A stretch of 21,821 bases of DNA from a virus. Shown here piece after piece: positions 1,395 through 16,203 of the stretch. The notes under the pieces were generated by a model. The model was not told the origin of the DNA, made no database searches, and saw nothing but the letters and a program-made list of their open reading frames with translations. The position numbers and the translations under genes are program-made. The stretch is from positions 1-21,821 of IMG/VR virus record IMGVR_UViG_3300023110_000189. One strand, written 5' to 3'. Numbering within the stretch: position 1 is the first letter of the stretch; every line of letters starts with the position of its first letter.

Positions 1395-4300
1395 ATGGCC
1401 ATTGATAAGTTAAAAACCAGCAGTCTAGAAGACAACAGTGTCACAAGTCCCAAACTTGCACCAGGTGCAGTTACAGAGGATGATATCGGTGACAGTTCTT
1501 TACCACTTAGTAAATTAAGCGAAGTTGATCTCGACATTGCTCCTGAAGTACTGGAAATTCAAGTATCTGCTCCACAAGCAGGTCAAGATACCCAGTGGCT
1601 TTGGACATGGTTAACCAGTAGCCTACCCTACGCCAGACGTACTATTACAAATTCACCTGAAATCCAAGTACCGTTATACAAGCAAGGTACGTACACAGTC
1701 AATAACTTTGCGGCATATGATCTATTTGATAGTATGACACAAACACACAGTTTGTACCTCAAATGGATTGACGGCGCTGGTACAGATAACCTTGTGTCCT
1801 GGGCAACTAGTACTGGACCAGTAAGCGATAGCCATCCAGACATTAACGGAGGAGCAGCTACAGACGTACAGCGCATTAACATCAGTGTTCCAAGTACTAT
1901 TACACTTCCTACGCTAACTCCTCCGAATGTAACCTATACCGTTACAAACAACGGTGCTGGTGCTTATACATTTAGTGGAGCCGCTAAAGGTGATAATCCA
2001 AATTTAGGTCCGTTTTACAGAGGTGGTACATACACCATCAACATTACTGCCACTGGACATCCGTTCTATTTTACAACTGACAATGGTACTAATTTTGCGT
2101 CAGGTACTTACTTTGGCGAGTATACAGATGGCGTTACTGGTTCAAGAACTGACAGTGGTACGATCACATTTACGGTACCCAATGACGCACCTGATACATT
2201 ATACTATCAATGCGGCAATCATTCGGTAATGCGTGGCGCTATCACGGTTAAAGATTTAGCAGTTGAAACAAACATCAATGGCAACTATGTTGTCTACTTC
2301 CAGCACACACAGGAAGGTCACAAAACACCAGTTGAATTAAGACCAATTCCATCATTAGTTAACCAGATGTGTTTGGTATATGATGCTGATAGTGGAAAGT
2401 TTGTTCCACAAGATTTGGCCACATATGTGGAAAACACGCCAAGTTTTGAAAACAAGATTCGTGAAGTGGCAGGTACAGCAGAATTAGTTGTTGAAGATGG
2501 GTCGGCGGTCATTGCAAAAGTTAATGTTTATGACGACAGTACCTACTTACCACTAGTTGGCAACAATCCAGGTGATCAGGCATTTGCAACGGATACTGAC
2601 ATCTTATACATTTGGGATGGAAGTGCATGGCAACAGGCCGGTGCAGCTAACACAGATGACCTGGCTGAAGGCACTACTAATTTATTTTACACAGATGCTC
2701 GTGTAGGTACTTACTTGAGTGCTCAAGGATATGATACAGCAACTAACATTGTAGCATCAATTACTGATTCAGCACCAGCAACACTAGATACCCTAAATGA
2801 ATTAGCCGCAGCATTAGGAGATGACCCTAACTTCGCTACAACAGTTACCAATAGTATTGCAACTAAAGCACCACTTGCTAATCCAGAGTTAACAGGGCAA
2901 GTAGATATTACAGCAACATCAGATGATGCTGCTTTAAGAATATTGCATGATGGAACACAGGGACATAAATCCACTATTAGATTTAGTAATGGATACACAC
3001 AGACATTTGAAATAGGTATGAGTGACACTCTTGGGTCTGCTCGTAATTTTATTATTTCTGAAACATCAACTGGTGCAAGTACAGATGCAACAAATCCAAA
3101 ATATGTGTTTAAAGGTAATGGAGATGGGCAATTATCAATTACCGATGCTGCTGATGGTGATGTTAAAATAAATTTATCAACAAATGGCGATACATACTTT
3201 ACTGGCGGTAATGTTGGTATTGGTACTAATAATCCAAGTTCATTGCTTCATATTGATGGAGGCGCTACTGGCTATTCGATTCATATGACTGATTATGGTG
3301 AACTTGGATTAAACGTAGTACCAAGTGCTAATTATAAATTAGAAATTGGTGCAGATTTTAGTTACGATGGTATTGGTATTAACGGTACTGATGAAGTAAG
3401 ACTTACAGTAGATCCTAGTAATGATTGGACCAATCCACCTGGTCCCAGTTACTTGCAATGGGACCGAGATTATTTTACCATCAATTCTCAAGGTACAAAT
3501 ATTATAACGCATGATGTTACACCTGCATCTAATCAGGATTATATTCTCTCGATTGGGGCAGGATACGTACAAGATGCAATTAATATCAAAGGCAATGGCA
3601 ATATTGGTATTGGCGCTGATCCAACTGGATTAGTCGCACCACTTAATATTCAAGCAGATGCAAATGCACGTTCTATTAGGGTTATTGGTAGATCAGATGA
3701 TTATGGCGAAATAGATTTTTATGAAAATGACAATACAACTATATTGTCAAGAATTCAAGCTCATAATACAATGTTTAACATTAGAGCATATAACGTACCA
3801 ATGCAATTCCAACAAAGCGGGAATACTAAAATGGTACTTACCACAGATGGTAAAGTTGGTATTGGTGGAAATTCTACAGTTTCAGCTAACTTGGACGTTA
3901 GGGTAAGTAGGACTGATACAGATCCATTGATCGGGTTATTTTCACAACAATCTAGTGGTGCAGACGCTAGAGTTATGATTGGTACAATTGCTAACCAAGA
4001 TGGTGATCCTTATTTAAAATTTGATGCTGGCGGATCAAATATGATTGTCGGTGAGTTTTGGAAAGGATCTACTAGCAATGAATTGAGAATGGGTACAGGT
4101 GAAAGACCTAGCGATAGTAATTTTAGAGGCCTTAGAGTAGATGGCGGCGGGCAAACTTATGATGAATCTGGTATTTTTAGTCCTATGTTCTATATCAATA
4201 GGAACTACGCAAACGTCAGTGGTAGTGGAGCCAGTAGCGGTACTTGGGGAACTGGTAGTTTTTACTCAGACTTAACTGCTGATGGCGATTTTCTAAATCT

Positions 4301-4718
4301 CAAAGACCATACTGCTAGTGGATTACAAAGTTGGTTTCATGGAGCATTTGGTCCAAACTGGCAAACAAGTACTTGGAGACAAGATATACGCAACTGGGGA
4401 GCAATTAGAATACTAGCAGTAATAAGTAGAACTAGTAACAGTTATGACACTACCAGCTGTGTATTCAATTATAAACGATATTTTTATAGCACTGGTTGGG
4501 CTGATATGAGTAGTACATACGACACAACATTTACTGGAACAGACAGTGACCGCGGTAGACGTTGGTTAGTTATGCCTTGGATTGACTATAGTGATTTTCC
4601 AAATGGCACAGACGTTCCTGGCATAGGATTAGTGCTAAAAACCAGCAATGGTGTTAATATAAGAGTCGGCGCATGTTATGTACAATACAGATATAAAGCC
4701 GCAGCAAATGGAGTTTAA
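1395..4718 (+). CDS. Long tail fibre A with cupredoxin-like domain
   Basis: A 1107-residue fibre-type virion protein. Residues 48-494 are nearly the same as residues 38-484 of the fibre at 5088-8015 (about 25 differences by eye). Residues about 205-287 look like a plastocyanin-type cupredoxin: GHPFYFT at 221-227 and YYQCGNHSVM at 270-279, giving the type 1 copper set H222, C273, H276 and M279. Next come a W-rich segment (YIWDGSAWQQ near 405), the fibre motif NLFYTDARV near 429, and TLDTLNELAAALGDD near 463. The distal part has GNVGIGTNNP-type repeats (three by eye) and a Tyr/Trp/Ser/Gly-rich C-terminus. No S74 endosialidase-type chaperone domain is evident. The ATG follows a late promoter and leader duplicated before the paralogue. 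A 109-residue gene follows after two bases. Fibre identity is secure; receptor and metal binding are inferred. Confidence 0.85.
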   Translation: MAIDKLKTSSLEDNSVTSPKLAPGAVTEDDIGDSSLPLSKLSEVDLDIAPEVLEIQVSAPQAGQDTQWLWTWLTSSLPYARRTITNSPEIQVPLYKQGTYTVNNFAAYDLFDSMTQTHSLYLKWIDGAGTDNLVSWATSTGPVSDSHPDINGGAATDVQRINISVPSTITLPTLTPPNVTYTVTNNGAGAYTFSGAAKGDNPNLGPFYRGGTYTINITATGHPFYFTTDNGTNFASGTYFGEYTDGVTGSRTDSGTITFTVPNDAPDTLYYQCGNHSVMRGAITVKDLAVETNINGNYVVYFQHTQEGHKTPVELRPIPSLVNQMCLVYDADSGKFVPQDLATYVENTPSFENKIREVAGTAELVVEDGSAVIAKVNVYDDSTYLPLVGNNPGDQAFATDTDILYIWDGSAWQQAGAANTDDLAEGTTNLFYTDARVGTYLSAQGYDTATNIVASITDSAPATLDTLNELAAALGDDPNFATTVTNSIATKAPLANPELTGQVDITATSDDAALRILHDGTQGHKSTIRFSNGYTQTFEIGMSDTLGSARNFIISETSTGASTDATNPKYVFKGNGDGQLSITDAADGDVKINLSTNGDTYFTGGNVGIGTNNPSSLLHIDGGATGYSIHMTDYGELGLNVVPSANYKLEIGADFSYDGIGINGTDEVRLTVDPSNDWTNPPGPSYLQWDRDYFTINSQGTNIITHDVTPASNQDYILSIGAGYVQDAINIKGNGNIGIGADPTGLVAPLNIQADANARSIRVIGRSDDYGEIDFYENDNTTILSRIQAHNTMFNIRAYNVPMQFQQSGNTKMVLTTDGKVGIGGNSTVSANLDVRVSRTDTDPLIGLFSQQSSGADARVMIGTIANQDGDPYLKFDAGGSNMIVGEFWKGSTSNELRMGTGERPSDSNFRGLRVDGGGQTYDESGIFSPMFYINRNYANVSGSGASSGTWGTGSFYSDLTADGDFLNLKDHTASGLQSWFHGAFGPNWQTSTWRQDIRNWGAIRILAVISRTSNSYDTTSCVFNYKRYFYSTGWADMSSTYDTTFTGTDSDRGRRWLVMPWIDYSDFPNGTDVPGIGLVLKTSNGVNIRVGACYVQYRYKAAANGV
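1536..2876 (+). repeat. Paralogous fibre head, copy A
   Basis: Encodes residues 48-494 of fibre A and matches 5199-6539 of fibre B codon for codon without a gap. Protein identity is about 94% by hand count, but a sampled 126-base stretch at the start is only about 78% identical in DNA, with most changes at third positions. This indicates long divergence under strong selection on the protein, or import of one copy from a related phage. Confidence 0.85.
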
Positions 4719-4720
4719 CG

Positions 4721-5050
4721 ATGGAATATAAATTTGAATTTAATGGTATGCTTTTAGAATCTGATCCATTTGCATTTGCGCCAGTGGAAGAAGGACATGA
4801 GCATTATAATATGCGTCTTTATGAAATTTGGAACATGCCTTTATCTACAGCAGAACAAATTAGAGATGATCATTTATGGGCAGATATAAGAGCTCAACGA
4901 AATAAACTAATTGCAGAAAGTGACTGGACACAAAACAGAGATGTGGTTTTAGATAACGATGATGCTTGGGCAGAATATCGTCAATCATTAAGAGATATAA
5001 CAAATCAAGAAGATCCTGAAAATATAGTATGGCCAACTCCTCCTGCTTAA
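4721..5050 (+). CDS. Tail assembly chaperone-like protein (Phage_tail_APC type)
   Basis: A 109-residue acidic protein. The C-terminal half carries the pattern of the small phage tail/fibre assembly domain of the PF16778 type: RAQRNKLIAESDWTQNRDVV near residues 59-78, then AWAEYRQSLRDITNQ near 83-97 and a Pro-rich end with WPTPPA. In that family the R-x-x-RN-x-L-x-x-SDWTQ segment and the W-x-x-YRQ-x-LRD segment are the hallmarks, and both are present. It starts two bases after the stop of fibre A, so coupled expression is likely and fibre A is the probable client. Family membership is read from motifs; the client is inferred. The stop codon is the first part of the duplicated promoter repeat that serves fibre B. 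Confidence 0.75.
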   Translation: MEYKFEFNGMLLESDPFAFAPVEEGHEHYNMRLYEIWNMPLSTAEQIRDDHLWADIRAQRNKLIAESDWTQNRDVVLDNDDAWAEYRQSLRDITNQEDPENIVWPTPPA

Positions 5051-5087: not shown

Positions 5088-8015
5088 ATGGCAATTCAAA
5101 AGTTTACAGAAGCCGCACTTGCGGATCTTGCACTAACAGATGCAGTAATTGCAGATAACAGTATTGATATTGAAAAACTCAGTAATGTTAATTTAAATAT
5201 TGCACCTGAAGTACTGGAGATTCAAGTAAGTGCGCCACAGGCTGGACAAGACACACAGTGGTTGTGGACCTGGCTTACAAGTAGCTTGCCTTATGCAAGA
5301 CGTACAATTACCAACTCACCTGAAATAAGTGTACCACTTTACAGACAGGGTACCTACACAGTAAACAATTACGCCGCTTACGATATATTTGACGACATGA
5401 CACAAACACATTCACTTTATTTGAAGTGGATTGATGGAGCGGGTACTGATAACTTAATTGACTGGGCTGTTAGTACTGGCCCAGTAAGTGATAGTCATCC
5501 AGATATCAATGGCGGCAATGCTACAGATGTACAGCGCATTAACATCAGCGTACCTGCAACCATTACATTGCCAACTTTGACAGCACCGTCAGTTTCATAT
5601 ACTGTAACGAATAATGGAGCAGGTGCTTATACGTTTAGTGGTGCAGCTAAAGGCGATAATCCAAATTTAGGTCCATTTTATAGAGGTGGTACATATACTA
5701 TTAATATTAATGCAGTGGGTCATCCATTTTACTTTACGACTGACAATGGCACCAACTTTGTTAGCGGTACATATTTTGGTGAATACACAAGTGGTGTAAC
5801 TGGTAGTCGTACTGACAATGGAACTATCACATTTACCGTTCCCAATGATGCCCCTGATACACTTTATTACCAATGCGGTAATCATGGTGTAATGCGTGGA
5901 GCAATTACTGTCAAAGACTTGGCTGTTGAGACAAATATTAATGGTAATCCAGTTGTATACTTCCAGCATACACAAGAAGGACATAAAACTCCAGTTGAAT
6001 TGAGACCAATTCCTAGTCTAGTTAATCAGATGTGCTTGGTGTATGATGCCGCTAGCGGACAGTTTGTTCCACAAGACTTGGCAACTTATGTGGAAAACAC
6101 ACCAAGTTTTGAAAACAAGATTCGTGAAGTAGCAGGTACTGCGGAATTGGTAGTTGAAGATGGTAGTGCCGTAATTGCCAAAGTTAACGTATATGATGAC
6201 AGTACATATCTTCCACTTGTTGGTAATAACCCTGGTGACCAGGCGTTTGCCACGGATACGGACATCCTATACATTTGGGATGGCTCGGCTTGGCAACAAG
6301 CCGGCGCCGCAAATACGGATGACTTGGCTGAAGGTACTACTAATTTATTTTATACAGACGCTCGTGTAGGCACGTATTTGTCAGCTCAAGGTTACGATAC
6401 AGCAACAAACATTATTGCCACTATTACTGATAGTGCGCCGACAACCCTGGACACATTAAATGAACTGGCGGCAGCATTAGGTGACGACCCCAACTTTGCT
6501 ACAACGGTTACTAACTCAATTGCAACTAAAGCACCACTAGTAGATCCAGTATTTACTGGACAATTAACAGCATCAGGTCCACTGGATGCAAACCTAGTAA
6601 CACAAAGTACTGATGGCACGACCGGTGTCAAGTTTATTGATTCTGACGGAACTGGACATTTATATTATGTAGGTGCTAGTGATCACTTTTATACTACTAG
6701 TAGATTATCTGTAGGTACAGCCGCTAATAATACATCACTTGATGTTTATCATGCTGTAAACAATACTGTTGCTTGGTTAGAAAGTGGCGATGCTGGCGTT
6801 AACATTACATTCAAAGATAGCGATACTACTAATAGACCTTATATTGGTGCTACTGGGAATAATATCATATTAGGACATGTTTCAGGTGGTGATAAAGTAA
6901 CAATTGATAGCGATGGTAATGTTGGTATTGGTACTGATAATCCTGATACCACATTAGTTGTTGATAGTTCTAATGTAGGTCCACTGAGAATACGTAGTTC
7001 TAATAATAACGGTGCTTATATTAGGTTAAGTGATCCAACCACCAGTGCTGACCCTAACCACGTATGGATTGGTTCCAAAGGTAATGATACTAGATTCTAT
7101 CAATCAAACTCATTATTGTCAATGGTTATCAGAAGCGATGGACATGTTGGTATAGGTACCAGTAATCCAGGATCTTTTGTTGAACTTGAAAATAATAATT
7201 ATTACCTAGCACTAAACCGTACTGATGACAGTGGATATCATGGCATTCAATTACAGTCTACTGGCTCAGCAAAAGGTTATTTAGGACTAGGCGGTACAGG
7301 TGGACACTTTACTGCAAATGGTCAACAGTTTGATCTTGTTTTGCGTAGTGAAAATGATTTACGTTTAGTAGCAGGCGGCGGTAGTGCAAGTGAAGAAGAA
7401 GTGCACATTAGAGCAGGAAGTGGTAATGTTGGTCTTGGTGTAAATAATCCAAACAGTAAACTAGCAATAGACACACCAGCGGCAGTTGGTTTAACTAACT
7501 TAGATTCAAATAATGGACTATACAGCTTTGCGAGTATTATTGAAACTCCTAGAACCAGTCATAAAGAATGTGTGTTTCTTATGAATCCAACCGCCAATGG
7601 ACAAAAATATATACATCTTGTTACAAATAGAGGTGGTGCAATTGCATGGGATTTAGACATTGTTAGCGGTAGAAGCGGAAGTGAACGTGCTTTTGGACGT
7701 GTTACTATGAGTGGATATAAGTATCATGAATCTGATGGTGATTTTAGACACGGTGCTCATAGTCATATTACTAGTATAAATGCATACGGTAATTATTTTG
7801 AAGTCAATGGTGAACCTACACATTATCTTGCAATTAATCCAACAGATACTAGTCAAACTTGGGCAGGCGGCGGCACCAATGCTGATTATTGGGTAGTTAG
7901 AATTCCAATACTTATGAACGCCGCTGGAACTGGTACAACAGAATTTACTGCAATATTAAAAGCAACATATCACAATCAAGGTGTAGGTGGTAGTTACTGG
8001 ATAGGATTTGTATAA
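5088..8015 (+). CDS. Long tail fibre B with cupredoxin-like domain
   Basis: A 975-residue fibre, paralogue of the one at 1395-4718. The first 37 residues differ, residues 38-484 are almost identical, and the rest differs. The cupredoxin-like domain (about 195-277) keeps the full ligand set H212, C263, H266 and M269 in GHPFYFT and YYQCGNHGVM. W-rich (YIWDGSAWQQ), TDARV and LNELAAALGDD motifs follow as in the paralogue. The unique distal part has at least three GNVGIGT-like repeats (GNVGIGTDNP, GHVGIGTSNP, GNVGLGVNNP) and ends in a beta-rich tip (YHNQGVGGSYWIGFV). No S74 chaperone domain is evident. The stop overlaps the next start as TAATG, a layout that supports translational reinitiation. 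The two fibres probably display different tips on a common base. Confidence 0.85.
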   Translation: MAIQKFTEAALADLALTDAVIADNSIDIEKLSNVNLNIAPEVLEIQVSAPQAGQDTQWLWTWLTSSLPYARRTITNSPEISVPLYRQGTYTVNNYAAYDIFDDMTQTHSLYLKWIDGAGTDNLIDWAVSTGPVSDSHPDINGGNATDVQRINISVPATITLPTLTAPSVSYTVTNNGAGAYTFSGAAKGDNPNLGPFYRGGTYTININAVGHPFYFTTDNGTNFVSGTYFGEYTSGVTGSRTDNGTITFTVPNDAPDTLYYQCGNHGVMRGAITVKDLAVETNINGNPVVYFQHTQEGHKTPVELRPIPSLVNQMCLVYDAASGQFVPQDLATYVENTPSFENKIREVAGTAELVVEDGSAVIAKVNVYDDSTYLPLVGNNPGDQAFATDTDILYIWDGSAWQQAGAANTDDLAEGTTNLFYTDARVGTYLSAQGYDTATNIIATITDSAPTTLDTLNELAAALGDDPNFATTVTNSIATKAPLVDPVFTGQLTASGPLDANLVTQSTDGTTGVKFIDSDGTGHLYYVGASDHFYTTSRLSVGTAANNTSLDVYHAVNNTVAWLESGDAGVNITFKDSDTTNRPYIGATGNNIILGHVSGGDKVTIDSDGNVGIGTDNPDTTLVVDSSNVGPLRIRSSNNNGAYIRLSDPTTSADPNHVWIGSKGNDTRFYQSNSLLSMVIRSDGHVGIGTSNPGSFVELENNNYYLALNRTDDSGYHGIQLQSTGSAKGYLGLGGTGGHFTANGQQFDLVLRSENDLRLVAGGGSASEEEVHIRAGSGNVGLGVNNPNSKLAIDTPAAVGLTNLDSNNGLYSFASIIETPRTSHKECVFLMNPTANGQKYIHLVTNRGGAIAWDLDIVSGRSGSERAFGRVTMSGYKYHESDGDFRHGAHSHITSINAYGNYFEVNGEPTHYLAINPTDTSQTWAGGGTNADYWVVRIPILMNAAGTGTTEFTAILKATYHNQGVGGSYWIGFV
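5199..6539 (+). repeat. Paralogous fibre head, copy B
   Basis: Counterpart of 1536-2876, encoding residues 38-484 of fibre B. Both copies end at the same point (TKAPL), after which the two proteins share only generic fibre motifs. Confidence 0.85.
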
Positions 8016-9059: not shown

Positions 9060-9239
9060 ATGATTACACAATATGTTTATATTTCAAATAATGAAGTGCA
9101 AGAAGTAAGATCTGTTGCACACGCTGAACATGATTTTGATGAAATGAGAGAAGTATCTACTGAAAACGGTATTATGTCAGCTAAACTTGTTGATGGGGTA
9201 CTTGAACTAGACGAAGTACTGCCAAATAAAGAAAACTAA
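9060..9239 (+). CDS. Small acidic protein, end of the fibre operon
   Basis: A 59-residue open frame starting ATG at 9060, ten bases after the adhesin stop, with AAGGATT just upstream as ribosome site. It begins MITQYVYISNNEVQEVRSVA and is rich in Glu, Asp and Val, with no membrane segment. It is the third short acidic protein placed right after a fibre or adhesin gene in this cluster (with 1136-1342 and 4721-5050), which suggests an assembly helper, but I do not recognise the family. Its TAA overlaps the stop of the convergent Nudix gene by four bases. Confidence 0.6.
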   Translation: MITQYVYISNNEVQEVRSVAHAEHDFDEMREVSTENGIMSAKLVDGVLELDEVLPNKEN

Positions 9240-9772
9240 AAACTATCTAACCAATTTGGGAGATCATTCATATCACGTTTACTCTCCCAAATTGTTTTAA
9301 TCTTTTCAGTCATTTCAGGATTTTGTAAAACAACTTTGGCACCTTGGTGTAGTGGTTTAGGATACATTCCTAAATTAACCCAAGCATATCCTGCACTTTC
9401 GCCATTTGTATCTGGCGTAAATTCTTCAAAGACAGTTACAACAAATGCATTGTATTCAAACTTTTTATCTGCACTTGTAAACTTGTGTAGTGGATATATT
9501 TTCTCAAAGTCTGGCAACATGCCAATCTCTTCACCAAGTTCACGTAACAGTGTCTCAACAGGACGTTCATTACGTTCAGCCTTGCCGCCCCAGAAACTCC
9601 AGGTTCCCTGATGTGTGCTACTTTTACTTCTTAATTGTAAACAAATTCTACCAGTGTCTAGTGCTAAAAATATACAACCACTAGCCGTTATGATCTTAGA
9701 GGTAGATCCTCCAGTAGCCTTCTTTGTACGTTCCTTCGTAACTGTTCTGCCAGTTTTGGCCCGTCCATTCAT
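9236..9772 (-). CDS. Nudix hydrolase
   Basis: A 178-residue Nudix (MutT-type) pyrophosphohydrolase. The Nudix box is perfect: G63-x5-E69-x7-R77-E-L-G-E-E-I-G-M85, from GGKAERNERPVETLLRELGE onward. The E77-82 cluster is the metal site that positions a nucleoside-diphosphate-linked substrate. Upstream, GCIFLALDTGRICLQLRS is the usual first strand pair, and QGTWSFWGG precedes the box. The chosen ATG at 9772 has GGAG seven bases upstream and is the only usable start before the domain: no later ATG, GTG or TTG occurs in frame before the box. That start lies 77 bases inside the gp15 gene, in another frame, so the first 26 residues are a basic tail read from gp15 coding sequence. Substrate is unknown; nucleotide-pool cleaning, ADP-ribose or mRNA-cap-type substrates are all possible. 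Confidence 0.87.
   Translation of the reverse strand: MNGRAKTGRTVTKERTKKATGGSTSKIITASGCIFLALDTGRICLQLRSKSSTHQGTWSFWGGKAERNERPVETLLRELGEEIGMLPDFEKIYPLHKFTSADKKFEYNAFVVTVFEEFTPDTNGESAGYAWVNLGMYPKPLHQGAKVVLQNPEMTEKIKTIWESKRDMNDLPNWLDSF
9252..9298 (+). terminator. Intrinsic terminator of the plus-strand fibre operon, inside the Nudix gene
   Basis: A perfect 12-bp inverted repeat (CAATTTGGGAGA at 9252-9263, TCTCCCAAATTG at 9283-9294, loop of 19) is followed by TTTT and, slightly further on, another T run (to about 9308). It lies 13 bases past the last plus-strand stop. On the minus strand the stem is followed at some distance by TTTTT, so it may also end the Nudix message. Confidence 0.7.
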
Positions 9773-11048
9773 ATTGATCTCCAGTAGCAGTGTTTGTAGT
9801 AAATTCATTTCCAGCAGTATTACTGCTACTATCGAACACCACAGTCCATGCACTGCCATTATAACTAATTATGTCATTTGCCCCTGCGTCTACACCCCAG
9901 AGACTACTTGTACCAATATCATTGAGTATCAAATACCGTTGTCCACTAGCCGCCGCTGGCAGTGTACCATCACCTGGATACGCATTTTGCGGATTAACAA
10001 TTGCATCCACTGTACCTTGTGTATCACTTGGTAGTGTATCAGTATCCAATAAGACAATTAACTTTTGTGGATCTGCAGGGTCAAAACTAATTGAACCAAT
10101 TACATCGCCACTTGGGTCTGATGGGTCAGCATTCCTACGTAAACGCAATTGACTAATACCAGGTCTCAGTGCACCAAATGGTGGAAGTATATTACTCCAG
10201 TCCAGTGTATTGCCGTCATTGTCAGTATTGCCATAATTTCTATTTAAAATTATAGCACGTTCGTCTAAAAACTTCAACTTATAATTTTCCAGTGTAACAA
10301 TTTTATAGTTATTAAAGTCTGCACTGAAACTTTCACCTAACTCAAAGTTGTCTAGATTGTCATCAGTAACACCATTGATGTTGTTTAATATAGTATGAAT
10401 AAGTGTTTGTTTTTGTACTTTTGCAGGTGGACTGATCCAGATTGGAACATCAAATTGCAGTGTAGCAACGTCAATAATCTCATCTACACCACTAGGAACA
10501 CTACGTACACTCCAGGTCATGTTAATAAGTTCAACGTATGCTAATCTTGTCCAATCATAAACATTGTCTGTTGCATTGATATTAAGTGTTGGGTTATACA
10601 GTACTAGTATTTGTTCTAGCAATTGCATTTTCTGTTCAGTGTTACTTGTCCAGATATCCACTTGCATTGTCAAGTTATATGGCACAGGCTGATAGCGTGT
10701 AATTTGATATGTGTCGCCAACTTCATCCAGATACTCACCAGTACCAGTATCATACTTCTTTTCATATACTTGTACTTTATCTGTGAACTGTGCATGTGTA
10801 CGTCTGTCAGGTGCAATGCTCATATCGCTCACATAACAACTGATAAACGGTGTAGCATTAACTACGTTTTCACTGTTGTCTTTAACAATGTGTGCAGCCA
10901 TACGACTGACGTCACCATAACGTACTGGCACAGTCTGATAAATCTTAGTGCCATCACTATTGGTTCCCATTTCAATATTAAAACCGCTAAACAGTCTAAT
11001 AAACTGTTGGATGTATCTGCGTAGTTGTTTGTCATAAAAATATTGCAT
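9696..11048 (-). CDS. gp15: Tail sheath stabiliser / tail terminator, T4 gp15-like, with C-terminal extension
   Basis: A 450-residue protein; T4 gp15 is 272. The N-terminus MQYFYDKQLRRYIQQFIRLF matches the T4 gp15 opening (YFYNSSFRRY...LFS), and the core (to about residue 255) keeps the same order: QTVPVRYGD near 39, PFISCYVSDMSIAPDRR near 67, YNLTMQVDIWTSN near 124, EQILVLYNPTLNIN near 142 and LQFDVPIWISPP near 199. In T4, gp15 forms the hexameric ring that caps tube and sheath and joins the tail to the neck. Residues about 260-450 are an extension with SYNGSAWTVVFD and QYEWTGQNWQN, motifs also seen in the sheath and fibres here. A late octamer lies five bases before the ATG and no ribosome site is seen. 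The 3' end overlaps the Nudix gene. Confidence 0.85.
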   Translation of the reverse strand: MQYFYDKQLRRYIQQFIRLFSGFNIEMGTNSDGTKIYQTVPVRYGDVSRMAAHIVKDNSENVVNATPFISCYVSDMSIAPDRRTHAQFTDKVQVYEKKYDTGTGEYLDEVGDTYQITRYQPVPYNLTMQVDIWTSNTEQKMQLLEQILVLYNPTLNINATDNVYDWTRLAYVELINMTWSVRSVPSGVDEIIDVATLQFDVPIWISPPAKVQKQTLIHTILNNINGVTDDNLDNFELGESFSADFNNYKIVTLENYKLKFLDERAIILNRNYGNTDNDGNTLDWSNILPPFGALRPGISQLRLRRNADPSDPSGDVIGSISFDPADPQKLIVLLDTDTLPSDTQGTVDAIVNPQNAYPGDGTLPAAASGQRYLILNDIGTSSLWGVDAGANDIISYNGSAWTVVFDSSSNTAGNEFTTNTATGDQYEWTGQNWQNSYEGTYKEGYWRIYL

Positions 11049-11968: not shown

Positions 11969-14212
11969 TTAAGTTGCGGCACCACTGACACCAGATGATG
12001 GTGCTTGTGCAATAGTTAAATCGCCAAAGTCAGTAACTGTATATAGTGTATTAATTTCAGCATATTCAATAGTTGATGTATATGTACTACTGTATCCTGG
12101 ATCACTTGAAGTAGCACCACTACCACCAGCAACACAAATTCTTGAACCATTACATGTTGCAACAGCGTTTTTACGTTGATAATTTAAACTACCAAAAAAT
12201 TCCGCTGTACCCGCATTTGCAATTTCAATTGTAGCCATATTGCCAGTTCGAGTGTTTACTGTGTTTTCAAACATAACAATGTGTGTATCATTTGAGCCTG
12301 CTGATGGTTTGGGCACGGCTGCTGCCAATGTAGCCCAAGTAGATGCTGTGCCTCCGCTAGCATAAGAAATTCTTTCTATGCTATCTTGTACTGTGTTTGT
12401 ACTATCATAACCACCCATACTGTATGCATATGATGCATCAGATACTGAACCAAGGTCACGTCTTGCAGATGTTAAATTACCAAAACTTGTACTATTTCCT
12501 AAAGTTTGTACTGTAATTTGACTTACTGTTGTAGTCGCAACCCAACCTGATCCTGTAATATTATAACCAGCTATAAACAACCCTTTTGTGCCGTCACATG
12601 TGGCAGTACCCCACAATCCGTGATCATCACCTAATGTGCCAAAGGATGTTGCGTCTGCAGGCGTGGCTGTTTCTATATATTCAATATTTCCGTTATAACC
12701 ATAACATGCACGGGTTCCGTCTGACAAGCCAGCTGATTGGAAGCCAGTTACTAATACACCAAAGTTTGTTGCGTTACTTGGGGTACTCATATCAAAATAT
12801 TGAATTTGATTTGAATTCGCACCACCAGCTTTAGTACCACCAGCAATGATACCACGTGGACCGTAGAACGATAATGGACTACCTTGTGTTCTTGACGCTG
12901 GCTCAATTAAGTTATCTTCTGTTCCACCAGAGCCATAAATCCATATTCTACCTGAACGATTTTCACCATCAACAACTTCTCCGTATTCTGAAATAACAAA
13001 TCTATCATTAAATAATCCAAGAGCATGTCCATAGTCTGGGAAGCTAGCACTTGGCGTACCTGGATGTGTAAATCTTTGAACAATTTCACCACTAGTAACG
13101 TCAAACATATATGCGTAACCATAACTATAATTTTCAGCCCATGGATCGCCAACGATAAAGTAATTATTACTAATGGCAATACCATAACCAAAATATGATC
13201 CAAGTGGGTCATATGGGTAATCACTACCTACAATTGTATGTGTTAAACTGCCATCTGAAACGTCCATTAAATAAGCCACCCCGCGGTTTGCTCCAGTACT
13301 GTTTCCTATATCTGGAACACCAACAACCATATTGTTTCCAGATACTCTTAGATAATAACCGAAAGCATCCCCATCTGGATCAACTAAGTTAGGGTTATCA
13401 ATTCTTCGCTGAAGATTACCTGTAGCAGTATCGTATACATAAATAGCACCGGCGTTTGTTCCACTAACATCTTCATTAGGCGCACCAACAACAATCCAAT
13501 CAGAAGTTATCCCAAGAGAAGCCCCAAAATAGTCATTTGAGTCAGCAGTATTAGCATTTGGATTAGATAATGTATATACAAGTCCACCACTTGTAGACTG
13601 TGTAATATCAAAAACAAAAACTTTATTACCAGTTCTTGCACTAACTGCAACTAAGTTTCCACTAAGACCTATGTCATAACCATACTGTATGTTATTACCA
13701 TCTGGGTTTGTAAATGTTCTAGCTAGAGACCAGTCTGATGTTTGGAAAACGTAAACCACACCAACACTTGCCCCGCTTGGTCCATCTTCGTCCATGCCAC
13801 TAACAACTACATAATCTTCACTAATTGCAACACCCTGCCTGCCAAATTGGTCATTGGCAGTTGTATTATATGAATTTGGGTTATCTAATGTTGCTAGTAG
13901 TGACCCGTCGGCGTTACTGAAAACATATACTTTACCAGCGTTTGATGTTGTACTAGAAGTATCATCTTCTCTGTATGCAGAAGCAACTGTAAAACTTTCA
14001 CATGTTGCGACCTTAGCACCAAAAAAGTCATCGACACCTGTACCAGTTGCATTAGGGTTGTCAATTGTGTGTGCTACTTGAAAAAAGCCGTCAGTGTTAA
14101 CGTTAAAGCCGCCACTTCCGCCCCCTGATTGTTGATCTGCTAAAAAGCTAGATTGTGCAGTTGCTCCAGTTGAAACTACTGAAAATCCTGAAATTGATGT
14201 TAGAAATGGCAT
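11969..14212 (-). CDS. Double beta-propeller protein (FG-GAP-like plus kelch-like)
   Basis: A 747-residue virion adhesin candidate. Residues about 45-430 hold seven repeats of the FG-GAP type. Each has an aromatic-Gly phrase (FFGAKVA, QFGRQGV, QYGYDIG, YFGASLG, AFGYYLR, YFGYGIA, DYGHALG), a V-V-x-G strand, then G-x-x-Y-V-F/Y and a 'D/T-x-x-G-x-L' turn, with linkers such as TIDNPNA and TLDNPN. Seven repeats fit a seven-bladed propeller. Residues about 450-735 hold about six kelch-like repeats (FIAGYN, YSMGGYD, VAGGSG, each followed by an I-x-Y/I strand and a T-x-FG-x-L turn). Asp/Asn-rich loops may bind calcium. It follows the fibre-like gene at 14224-14823 after 11 bases with AAGGA as ribosome site. 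Surface binding to host glycans or proteins is inferred. Confidence 0.72.
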   Translation of the reverse strand: MPFLTSISGFSVVSTGATAQSSFLADQQSGGGSGGFNVNTDGFFQVAHTIDNPNATGTGVDDFFGAKVATCESFTVASAYREDDTSSTTSNAGKVYVFSNADGSLLATLDNPNSYNTTANDQFGRQGVAISEDYVVVSGMDEDGPSGASVGVVYVFQTSDWSLARTFTNPDGNNIQYGYDIGLSGNLVAVSARTGNKVFVFDITQSTSGGLVYTLSNPNANTADSNDYFGASLGITSDWIVVGAPNEDVSGTNAGAIYVYDTATGNLQRRIDNPNLVDPDGDAFGYYLRVSGNNMVVGVPDIGNSTGANRGVAYLMDVSDGSLTHTIVGSDYPYDPLGSYFGYGIAISNNYFIVGDPWAENYSYGYAYMFDVTSGEIVQRFTHPGTPSASFPDYGHALGLFNDRFVISEYGEVVDGENRSGRIWIYGSGGTEDNLIEPASRTQGSPLSFYGPRGIIAGGTKAGGANSNQIQYFDMSTPSNATNFGVLVTGFQSAGLSDGTRACYGYNGNIEYIETATPADATSFGTLGDDHGLWGTATCDGTKGLFIAGYNITGSGWVATTTVSQITVQTLGNSTSFGNLTSARRDLGSVSDASYAYSMGGYDSTNTVQDSIERISYASGGTASTWATLAAAVPKPSAGSNDTHIVMFENTVNTRTGNMATIEIANAGTAEFFGSLNYQRKNAVATCNGSRICVAGGSGATSSDPGYSSTYTSTIEYAEINTLYTVTDFGDLTIAQAPSSGVSGAAT

Positions 14213-14835: not shown

Positions 14836-16203
14836 TTAATCTTCTACATAGCCACTAGCCACGTAATCAGTAACTATATAACTATTATTTATCGGTTCTG
14901 GGCTATTTTCTACATAATCATCTGCTACGAAATCAGTAGCAACATATAGCTCATTTTCATTTATTGGACTCGGTGCATCTTCTACATAATCATCTGCTAC
15001 GTAGTCTGTATCAACATATAATAACTCAGGGTCTGGGGTAGTACCAGTATCTGTACCAGTATCTGTACCAGTATCTGTACCAGTATCTGTACCAGTACCA
15101 GTATTAATTTGACCGTCTAATGGATCAGTAGTACCTCCTGCATCAGCTCTTGGTAGTATTGCTTTACTTATCGCTTGTCTTTCACTAAACTCTTTATCAG
15201 CAACAACAGTTGTTGCATCATTGTTAATAAATGGTTCAGCATTGTAAGTCTTTTCGCTCCAAGTCTGTGCAGTTACGTTGTCATATAGTCGTTGCCATTT
15301 GCTGCCACGTCTTACAAACAAACGTTTAGGCTGGAAGTCTGTGCGTACAAAGTAATCACCTTCATTTGGATTGCTTGGGAAACTAGTACCGCTGTTGATA
15401 GTTTCACCATATTCCCAAATTTCTCTAGTGTTATCAAATCCAAATAAGTGTTCAGTTAAACTTTCTCCAATTGGATCTGCTTTTTCAGCCGCTTCAACAA
15501 TAGCATTACTGATATCCAATTCTTTCTTGTAACTACTGATAACATTTTTAAGACTGTCTTCTTGTTCTGCATTGCCAAGTATATCTGCGTACTCCTGGCT
15601 GTCTGTAATTGGCGACAGTTTAACACGCCAAATATGCGGCATCCAAGTAGCACTAAATCCTTCACTACCACGGTTAGCGTCTTGTACTACATAAAACTTG
15701 GGAATAGGATCGCATTTTGTAGCATCTAGTGCTAAGTCATCTAACAAGTGTGGTAATTCAATAACATCGCCTGGCATAAGTCTGCGTCCAATAATCTCTA
15801 CCATATGATTCATATGGAATGTCATAAACAGGACATCGTTAGTTAAAAACAAACCAAACTGTGTCAAGTCAAAGTCATTGTCACTAACATTGTATACGCC
15901 ACGCAGTTCATAGATACAAGGATCATATTTACGATCACGGTTTTCCATAAACAGCAAGTCTTGGATTTTAGTTTCGTTAATAACGCCTTCCAAGTTTGTA
16001 AAGTCACCAGTAATAGGATCTACTTCTTCTCCAGCACGATAGTTTGGTTGTGCTGGGTCTCCAGTCTCGCCAAGACTCTGTGGGCCAATGTATTTGTGTA
16101 CATAGGCACCAGTACCACCAATTTCAAACTGCTCTTTGATGGTGTTATCTAAAAAATAGTAATCATTTGTTTTAGTGGGTTTCCACAAACTTAGTCTAGG
16201 CAT
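14836..16203 (-). CDS. gp14: Neck protein, T4 gp14-like, with repeat-bearing C-terminus
   Basis: A 455-residue protein; T4 gp14 is 256. The core matches marine T4-like gp14: LLFMENRDRKYDPCIYELRG near 83-102, NDFDLTQFGLFLTNDVLFMT near 108-127, HMVEIIGRRLMPGDVIELPH near 132-151, KFYVVQDANRGSEGFSATW near 167 and HIWRVKLSPITDSQEY near 189. Gp14 and gp13 form the neck that joins the filled head to the tail. Next comes the module SFPSNPNEGDYFVRTDFQPK with KWQRLYDN, also seen in marine phage homologues. The end is low complexity: a TDTG run near 373-388, then three copies of a Y-V-x-T-D-Y/F-V-A-x-x-Y-V-E unit at 396-409, 420-433 and 442-455. AAGGA precedes the ATG and a late octamer lies upstream. 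Confidence 0.85.
   Translation of the reverse strand: MPRLSLWKPTKTNDYYFLDNTIKEQFEIGGTGAYVHKYIGPQSLGETGDPAQPNYRAGEEVDPITGDFTNLEGVINETKIQDLLFMENRDRKYDPCIYELRGVYNVSDNDFDLTQFGLFLTNDVLFMTFHMNHMVEIIGRRLMPGDVIELPHLLDDLALDATKCDPIPKFYVVQDANRGSEGFSATWMPHIWRVKLSPITDSQEYADILGNAEQEDSLKNVISSYKKELDISNAIVEAAEKADPIGESLTEHLFGFDNTREIWEYGETINSGTSFPSNPNEGDYFVRTDFQPKRLFVRRGSKWQRLYDNVTAQTWSEKTYNAEPFINNDATTVVADKEFSERQAISKAILPRADAGGTTDPLDGQINTGTGTDTGTDTGTDTGTDTGTTPDPELLYVDTDYVADDYVEDAPSPINENELYVATDFVADDYVENSPEPINNSYIVTDYVASGYVED
14839..15020 (-). repeat. Three imperfect repeats encoding YVxTDYVAxxYVE units in gp14
   Basis: The last 62 codons of gp14 carry three copies of a roughly 14-residue acidic/aromatic unit separated by Pro/Asn linkers (APSPINENEL, SPEPINNS). 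The first two linkers share the S-P/E-x-P-IN pattern, so the real period is about 22-24 residues. Confidence 0.8.
15041..15100 (-). repeat. 12-bp tandem repeat in gp14
   Basis: Four exact plus-strand copies of GTACCAGTATCT (15041-15088) and a degenerate fifth copy encode a Thr-Asp-Thr-Gly linker on the minus strand. Near-perfect DNA identity points to recent slippage, so its length probably varies between relatives without breaking the reading frame. Confidence 0.9.

Follow-up and report, generated by a model that had tools for sequence, protein, structure and literature searches.

The window, by which we mean the whole stretch of viral DNA analysed (21,821 nt, positions 1 to 21,821 of IMG/VR record IMGVR_UViG_3300023110_000189), carries two long tail fibre genes on its + strand. 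Copy A (1395..4718, 1107 aa) and copy B (5088..8015, 975 aa) were called from their open reading frames and from matches to PHROG tail-fibre families, several of them for copy A. Between the two lies a gene for a tail fibre assembly protein (4721..5050, +; phrog_4912, E 4e-18). The fibre proteins share more than 90% identity over residues 46-495 of copy A and diverge beyond approximately residue 495. The source phage is probably an uncultured jumbo myovirus, because the window's tail-sheath stabiliser-like protein has its nearest relatives in jumbo phages of Sinorhizobium, Agrobacterium and Pseudomonas.

Each fibre contains two neighbouring domains, D1 and D2. D2 comprises residues 176-288 of copy A (1920..2258, +), on the evidence of an AlphaFold2 model, fold matches in the PDB and the C-terminal part of phrog_677, and residues 166-278 of copy B (5583..5921, +); it is about 113 residues long in both fibres, and the two copies of the domain are 93% identical. 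D1 comprises residues 46-171 of copy A (1530..1907, +) and, by alignment with that domain, residues 36-161 of copy B (5193..5570, +). A first-pass annotation made from the letters of this DNA had placed a plastocyanin-like copper site at 2007-2255 and 5670-5918. A domain is indeed present at both positions, and its extent is longer than annotated, reaching from about 1920 to 2258 and from about 5583 to 5921.

Ligand residues and predicted fold of D2

The motifs GHPFYFT and YYQCGNH-[SG]-VM occur in both copies, with 51 residues separating the first His from the Cys, and the residues of the annotated His, Cys, His, Met set lie where the first-pass annotation had put them. In copy A, the predicted ligands are H222 (2058..2060, within GHPFYF), C273 (2211..2213), H276 (2220..2222) and the axial M279 (2229..2231), all on the + strand, and they align with the first His, the Cys, the second His and the Met ligand of amicyanin, respectively. 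Their counterparts in copy B are H212 (5721..5723), C263 (5874..5876), H266 (5883..5885) and the axial M269 (5892..5894), also on the + strand. The Ser/Gly change between the copies falls between H276 and M279, as had been noted, and leaves the ligands identical.

The comparison with plastocyanin holds for cupredoxin kinship and fails for the ligand loop: D2 has the C-x2-H-x2-M spacing of amicyanin, versus C-x2-H-x4-M in plastocyanin, and we rejected a plastocyanin assignment on this basis. Amicyanin (TIGR02657; PDB 1aac, 2gb2) shares with D2 the cupredoxin fold and the arrangement H...C-x2-H-x2-M followed by MRG. It differs in being a free periplasmic electron carrier, and D2 does not belong to its family, scoring 14 bits against a TIGR02657 cut-off of 110.2 bits. 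In addition, D2 has Pro directly after the first His (HP), where plastocyanin and amicyanin both have Asn (HN), so second-sphere hydrogen bonds must differ from those in either protein. At the type 1 site of multicopper oxidases, the first His is followed by Pro-Phe (HPFHLHG). D2 has this His-Pro-Phe in common with them, but contains a single predicted copper site and lacks the type 2/3 His residues.

AlphaFold2, run without templates, predicts D2 as an eight-stranded domain with a pLDDT of 95.1, in line with the Greek-key beta-sandwich of about eight strands that characterises cupredoxins. In this model the Cys ends one strand and is followed by a loop that carries the second His and the Met and leads into the last strand; the first His lies just before an earlier strand. 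The predicted strand positions and fold agree with a formed type 1 site. Using Foldseek and VIA-align against the PDB, we found the best matches to be exclusively cupredoxins and multicopper oxidases, which bears out the cupredoxin fold that the first-pass annotation had proposed to examine with AlphaFold. The closest were rusticyanin (2cal; VIA-align Z 10.6, 100 residues at 2.5 Å) and the N-terminal cupredoxin of Hyphomicrobium nitrite reductase (2dv6; Z 10.3, 25% identity), and small laccases were also among the fold matches. The two best matches share approximately 21-25% identity with D2 and, unlike it, are enzymes or electron carriers rather than virion parts; the rusticyanin ligand loop is also longer.

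Sequence comparison of D2 by itself returned no Pfam or NCBIfam family above threshold, with the gathering score of PF00127 unreached, and a phmmer search against PDB sequences gave nothing convincing; its matches 9rxk and 8a14 (E 0.06-0.08) involve no cupredoxin and were discounted. We also compared a family profile, A2, comprising 85 phage and bacterial relatives, with PDB sequences. The top matches were copper nitrite reductase, amicyanin, plastocyanin, pseudoazurin and azurin, and in the A2 alignment the four D2 ligands fall on the four of amicyanin. PF00127 (Copper-bind) is matched by 26 of the 85 members at E up to 0.1, and one bacterial relative, L182, passes its cut-off (25.1 vs 21.2 bits) and matches amicyanin with an E-value of 3.7e-8. 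Separately, 33 of the 85 members show a weak match to PF25489, the At5g54830-like domain (best E 7e-6), and that domain may be cupredoxin-like as well.

A chance motif is ruled out by the fold and the family profile and, as described below, by the full-length match to phrog_677, the conservation of the ligand columns and the ligand-blind survey. The located residues, their predicted strand positions and the amicyanin alignment support the view, put forward in the first-pass annotation, that D2 in both fibres is a cupredoxin domain with a complete predicted set of type 1 copper ligands.

Distribution of the domain and retention of its ligands

D2 aligns over its full length with the C-terminal part of phrog_677, the family of gp9, a baseplate wedge tail fibre connector of cyanophages (profile positions 298-411 of 412, E 3e-21), whose C-terminal domain is the same domain. 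Because the match is confined to these positions, the fibres themselves were not assigned to gp9/phrog_677: the domain ends the baseplate connector in gp9, whereas in the window it occupies the N-terminal third of a fibre that lacks the N-terminal part of gp9. The domain is common in marine phages. Among cultured phages, 215 records contain a detectable D2 relative, and all are cyanophages except two marine virus records. Named cyanophages, including P-SSM2, S-ShM2, Bellamy and the podovirus P-GSP1, have one to four copies each, and copies under annotated cyanophage genes lie within the tail-gene region, in proteins of the baseplate or fibre or in hypothetical ones. S-ShM2 carries the domain at the end of gp9 with its ligands retained; P-SSM2 has four copies in all, in a fibre-like protein and elsewhere; Bellamy has two; and P-GSP1 has the domain in a hypothetical protein adjoining a tail fibre gene. 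The strong-scoring cyanophage copies that we examined retain the His, Cys, His and Met.

Relatives also occur in bacterial genomes and among giant-virus proteins. Bacterial genomes with related domains (L163-L205) belong to Flavobacteriaceae, Myxococcales, Alphaproteobacteria and, in one case, Neomarinimicrobiota, with two copies in some proteins; the proteins may be encoded by prophages or be secreted by the cell itself. In BFVD, predicted structures of short Pithovirus and Marseillevirus proteins named "beta-sandwich protein" (A0A481Z6J5, A0A481YVH3) match the D2 fold over most of their length.

We surveyed ligand conservation in two ways. The first survey used scans with GHPF-containing patterns and representatives below 80% identity, and recovered all four ligands in 75 of 77; one of the remaining two is truncated and the other (L079) lacks three. 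In this survey the 7 most conserved of the 114 columns include those of the ligands, the H222 column being biased by the GHPF search pattern. To remove this ascertainment bias, the second survey searched viral contigs with ligand-free stretches and a ligand-masked profile. Among its 133 full-length domains, 106 have four ligands, none has three, six have two, 14 have one and seven have none; the corresponding numbers for 90 representatives are 72, 0, 2, 11 and 5. Every domain that retains the other three ligands also has the axial Met.

Frequent loss of ligands in homologues had been named in the first-pass annotation as evidence that would speak against a copper site. Such loss occurs to an extent, in 18 of the 90 representatives, but always removes at least two ligands at once and is never seen in the window's own clade, where the site is intact in 25 of 25 representatives. 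A tree from 114 columns implies about five changes in site state, at least three of which are forced by well supported branches, with the exact number of losses uncertain. These data show that the fold can persist without the site and that relatives can discard it. Joint loss of several ligands, never leaving exactly three, is the pattern predicted by a metal site under selection.

The two copies within the window provide a further comparison. Between the D2 domains of copies A and B, pS is 0.76 and pN is 0.07, and the ligand residues are identical; synonymous change is near-saturated, and purifying selection on both copies is strong. Together, the all-or-none pattern among relatives and the strong purifying selection between copies argue for a metal site that is selected as a unit.

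Domain D1 appears to represent the other outcome. In a profile-profile comparison it matches D2 with a probability of 87.5% (E 3.6e-6, 61 columns), and it is beta-rich in a two-domain model. The matches listed in the two-domain fold search were filled by D2, and it is the profile comparison that carries the assignment of D1. D1, which has no Cys-His-Met, is probably a degenerate cupredoxin sister of D2 that has lost the site, in which case a site-less and a site-bearing sandwich probably adjoin in each fibre. A different tandem arrangement is found at other viral loci (L222, L235, L253, L288 and similar), whose proteins contain three cupredoxin-like stretches each; the middle stretch lacks most ligands (DCQM, YSQM, EAQM) and the flanking ones match partly.

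Possible roles of the predicted copper site

Our preferred reading is that D2 is a structural or docking module stabilised by copper, rather than an electron carrier or a receptor-binding domain. On this proposal, the N-terminal third of each fibre would consist of two tandem beta-sandwich domains, with the predicted site of D2 on two loops at one end of its sandwich. The site would bind copper in the virion, having acquired it after lysis or from the surrounding water rather than in the cytoplasm. The metal would tie the two ligand loops together, stabilising D2, and would fix the end of the sandwich that other cupredoxins use for docking, allowing it to pack against neighbouring fibre or baseplate parts. 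We infer the copper binding, its uptake outside the cell and the tying of the loops from the features described above, and consider the module as a whole, with its D1 and D2 sandwiches and its predicted copper site in D2, reasonably likely.

The position of D2 in the N-terminal third of the fibres, and that of its counterpart closing the gp9 connector, favour this role over receptor contact. gp9 is annotated as joining baseplate and fibre, and a related domain at its C-terminal end fits a structural or docking role. Two observations sit less easily with it. A structural role alone does not explain why the site would be retained whole, as sister domains manage without it, and roughly one-fifth of the representatives lack the site.

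Retention of the site as a unit, and the abundance of the domain in marine phages, would also be expected if the site served copper-dependent adhesion, in which a site on the virion mimics or competes for copper or a redox partner at the host surface and thereby aids attachment. Receptor contact is usually made through the distal fibre tip, however, and the domain is placed near the virion, towards the N terminus of the window's fibres and closing the gp9 connector at its C terminus; in the fibres its probable site-less sister, D1, adjoins it. Adhesion of this kind would be the copper analogue of the Trojan or Ferrojan horse idea for iron, for which a model with HxH motifs in fibres has been published (PMC11705849). 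That work, which proposes HxH iron sites in T4 gp37 and marine phage fibres, is the nearest published idea to ours in placing a metal in phage tail fibres, and is distinct from D2 in metal, motif and fold (PMC11705849). The repeated HxH motifs of such iron-binding fibres are not found here: copy A has no HxH and copy B a single one, and we rejected that assignment. Overall, we regard copper-dependent adhesion as unlikely.

Equally unlikely, in our assessment, is that the Cys and two His residues hold another metal, such as zinc, purely for stability. Zinc can enter cupredoxin sites when the proteins are made in recombinant hosts, and fibre assembly takes place in the cytoplasm, which contains little free copper. 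The axial Met argues against zinc, as its invariance alongside the other three ligands is what copper sites typically show and zinc sites usually do not.

It is less probable still that only the fold was inherited, as a reused beta-sandwich in which the ligands persist as a relic without any metal function. The absence of the site from D1 of each fibre and from several distant lineages indicates that the fold does not need it, but a relic would be expected to lose its ligands one at a time, and not one of the 133 domains has exactly three. Nor does a relic account for an intact site throughout the window's clade in spite of near-saturated synonymous change. Finally, D2 matches electron-transfer cupredoxins in its ligand set and spacing, but we consider it improbable that the site acts as a redox switch, with a fibre transition set off by a change between Cu(I) and Cu(II), or as an electron carrier: it is embedded in a structural protein, and the window offers no partner and no hint of an electron path.

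Known cupredoxins are domains for electron transfer or oxidase activity, either soluble or bound in enzymes. We found no description of them in phage tails in the freely accessible published papers searched. Here, many aquatic phages have an intact and strongly conserved predicted type 1 site in the fibres and baseplate connectors of their virions, in proteins annotated only as tail or unknown, which suggests that phage tails may carry copper. If copper is bound, it would be a second metal proposed in phage tails besides iron, one for which spectroscopy offers a clear test, and the adsorption or stability of phages would be tied to the trace-metal chemistry of the sea. A much broader possibility, which we consider doubtful, is that many aquatic phages have functional type 1 copper centres in their tail fibres and baseplates, that these centres take up their copper from the water, and that infection depends on them; virions would then form a copper-binding pool, and adhesion or fibre deployment would depend on copper or redox state.

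Other features of the window

Further genes were noted on the - strand. An open reading frame for a NUDIX hydrolase (9236-9859, -) overlaps the tail sheath/stabiliser-like reading frame (9696-11048, -) on the same strand, and in PA5oct-like jumbo phages NUDIX and sheath annotations occur within one and the same match. At 11969-14212 (-), a 747-residue protein for which a PHROG search returned no match contains repeats such as DDYFGASLGI followed by VVGAPNED, which resemble FG-GAP beta-propeller repeats. A virion structural protein encoded at 14836-16203 (-) ends in a low-complexity TGTD repeat and repeated units resembling YVxTDYVADDYVED.
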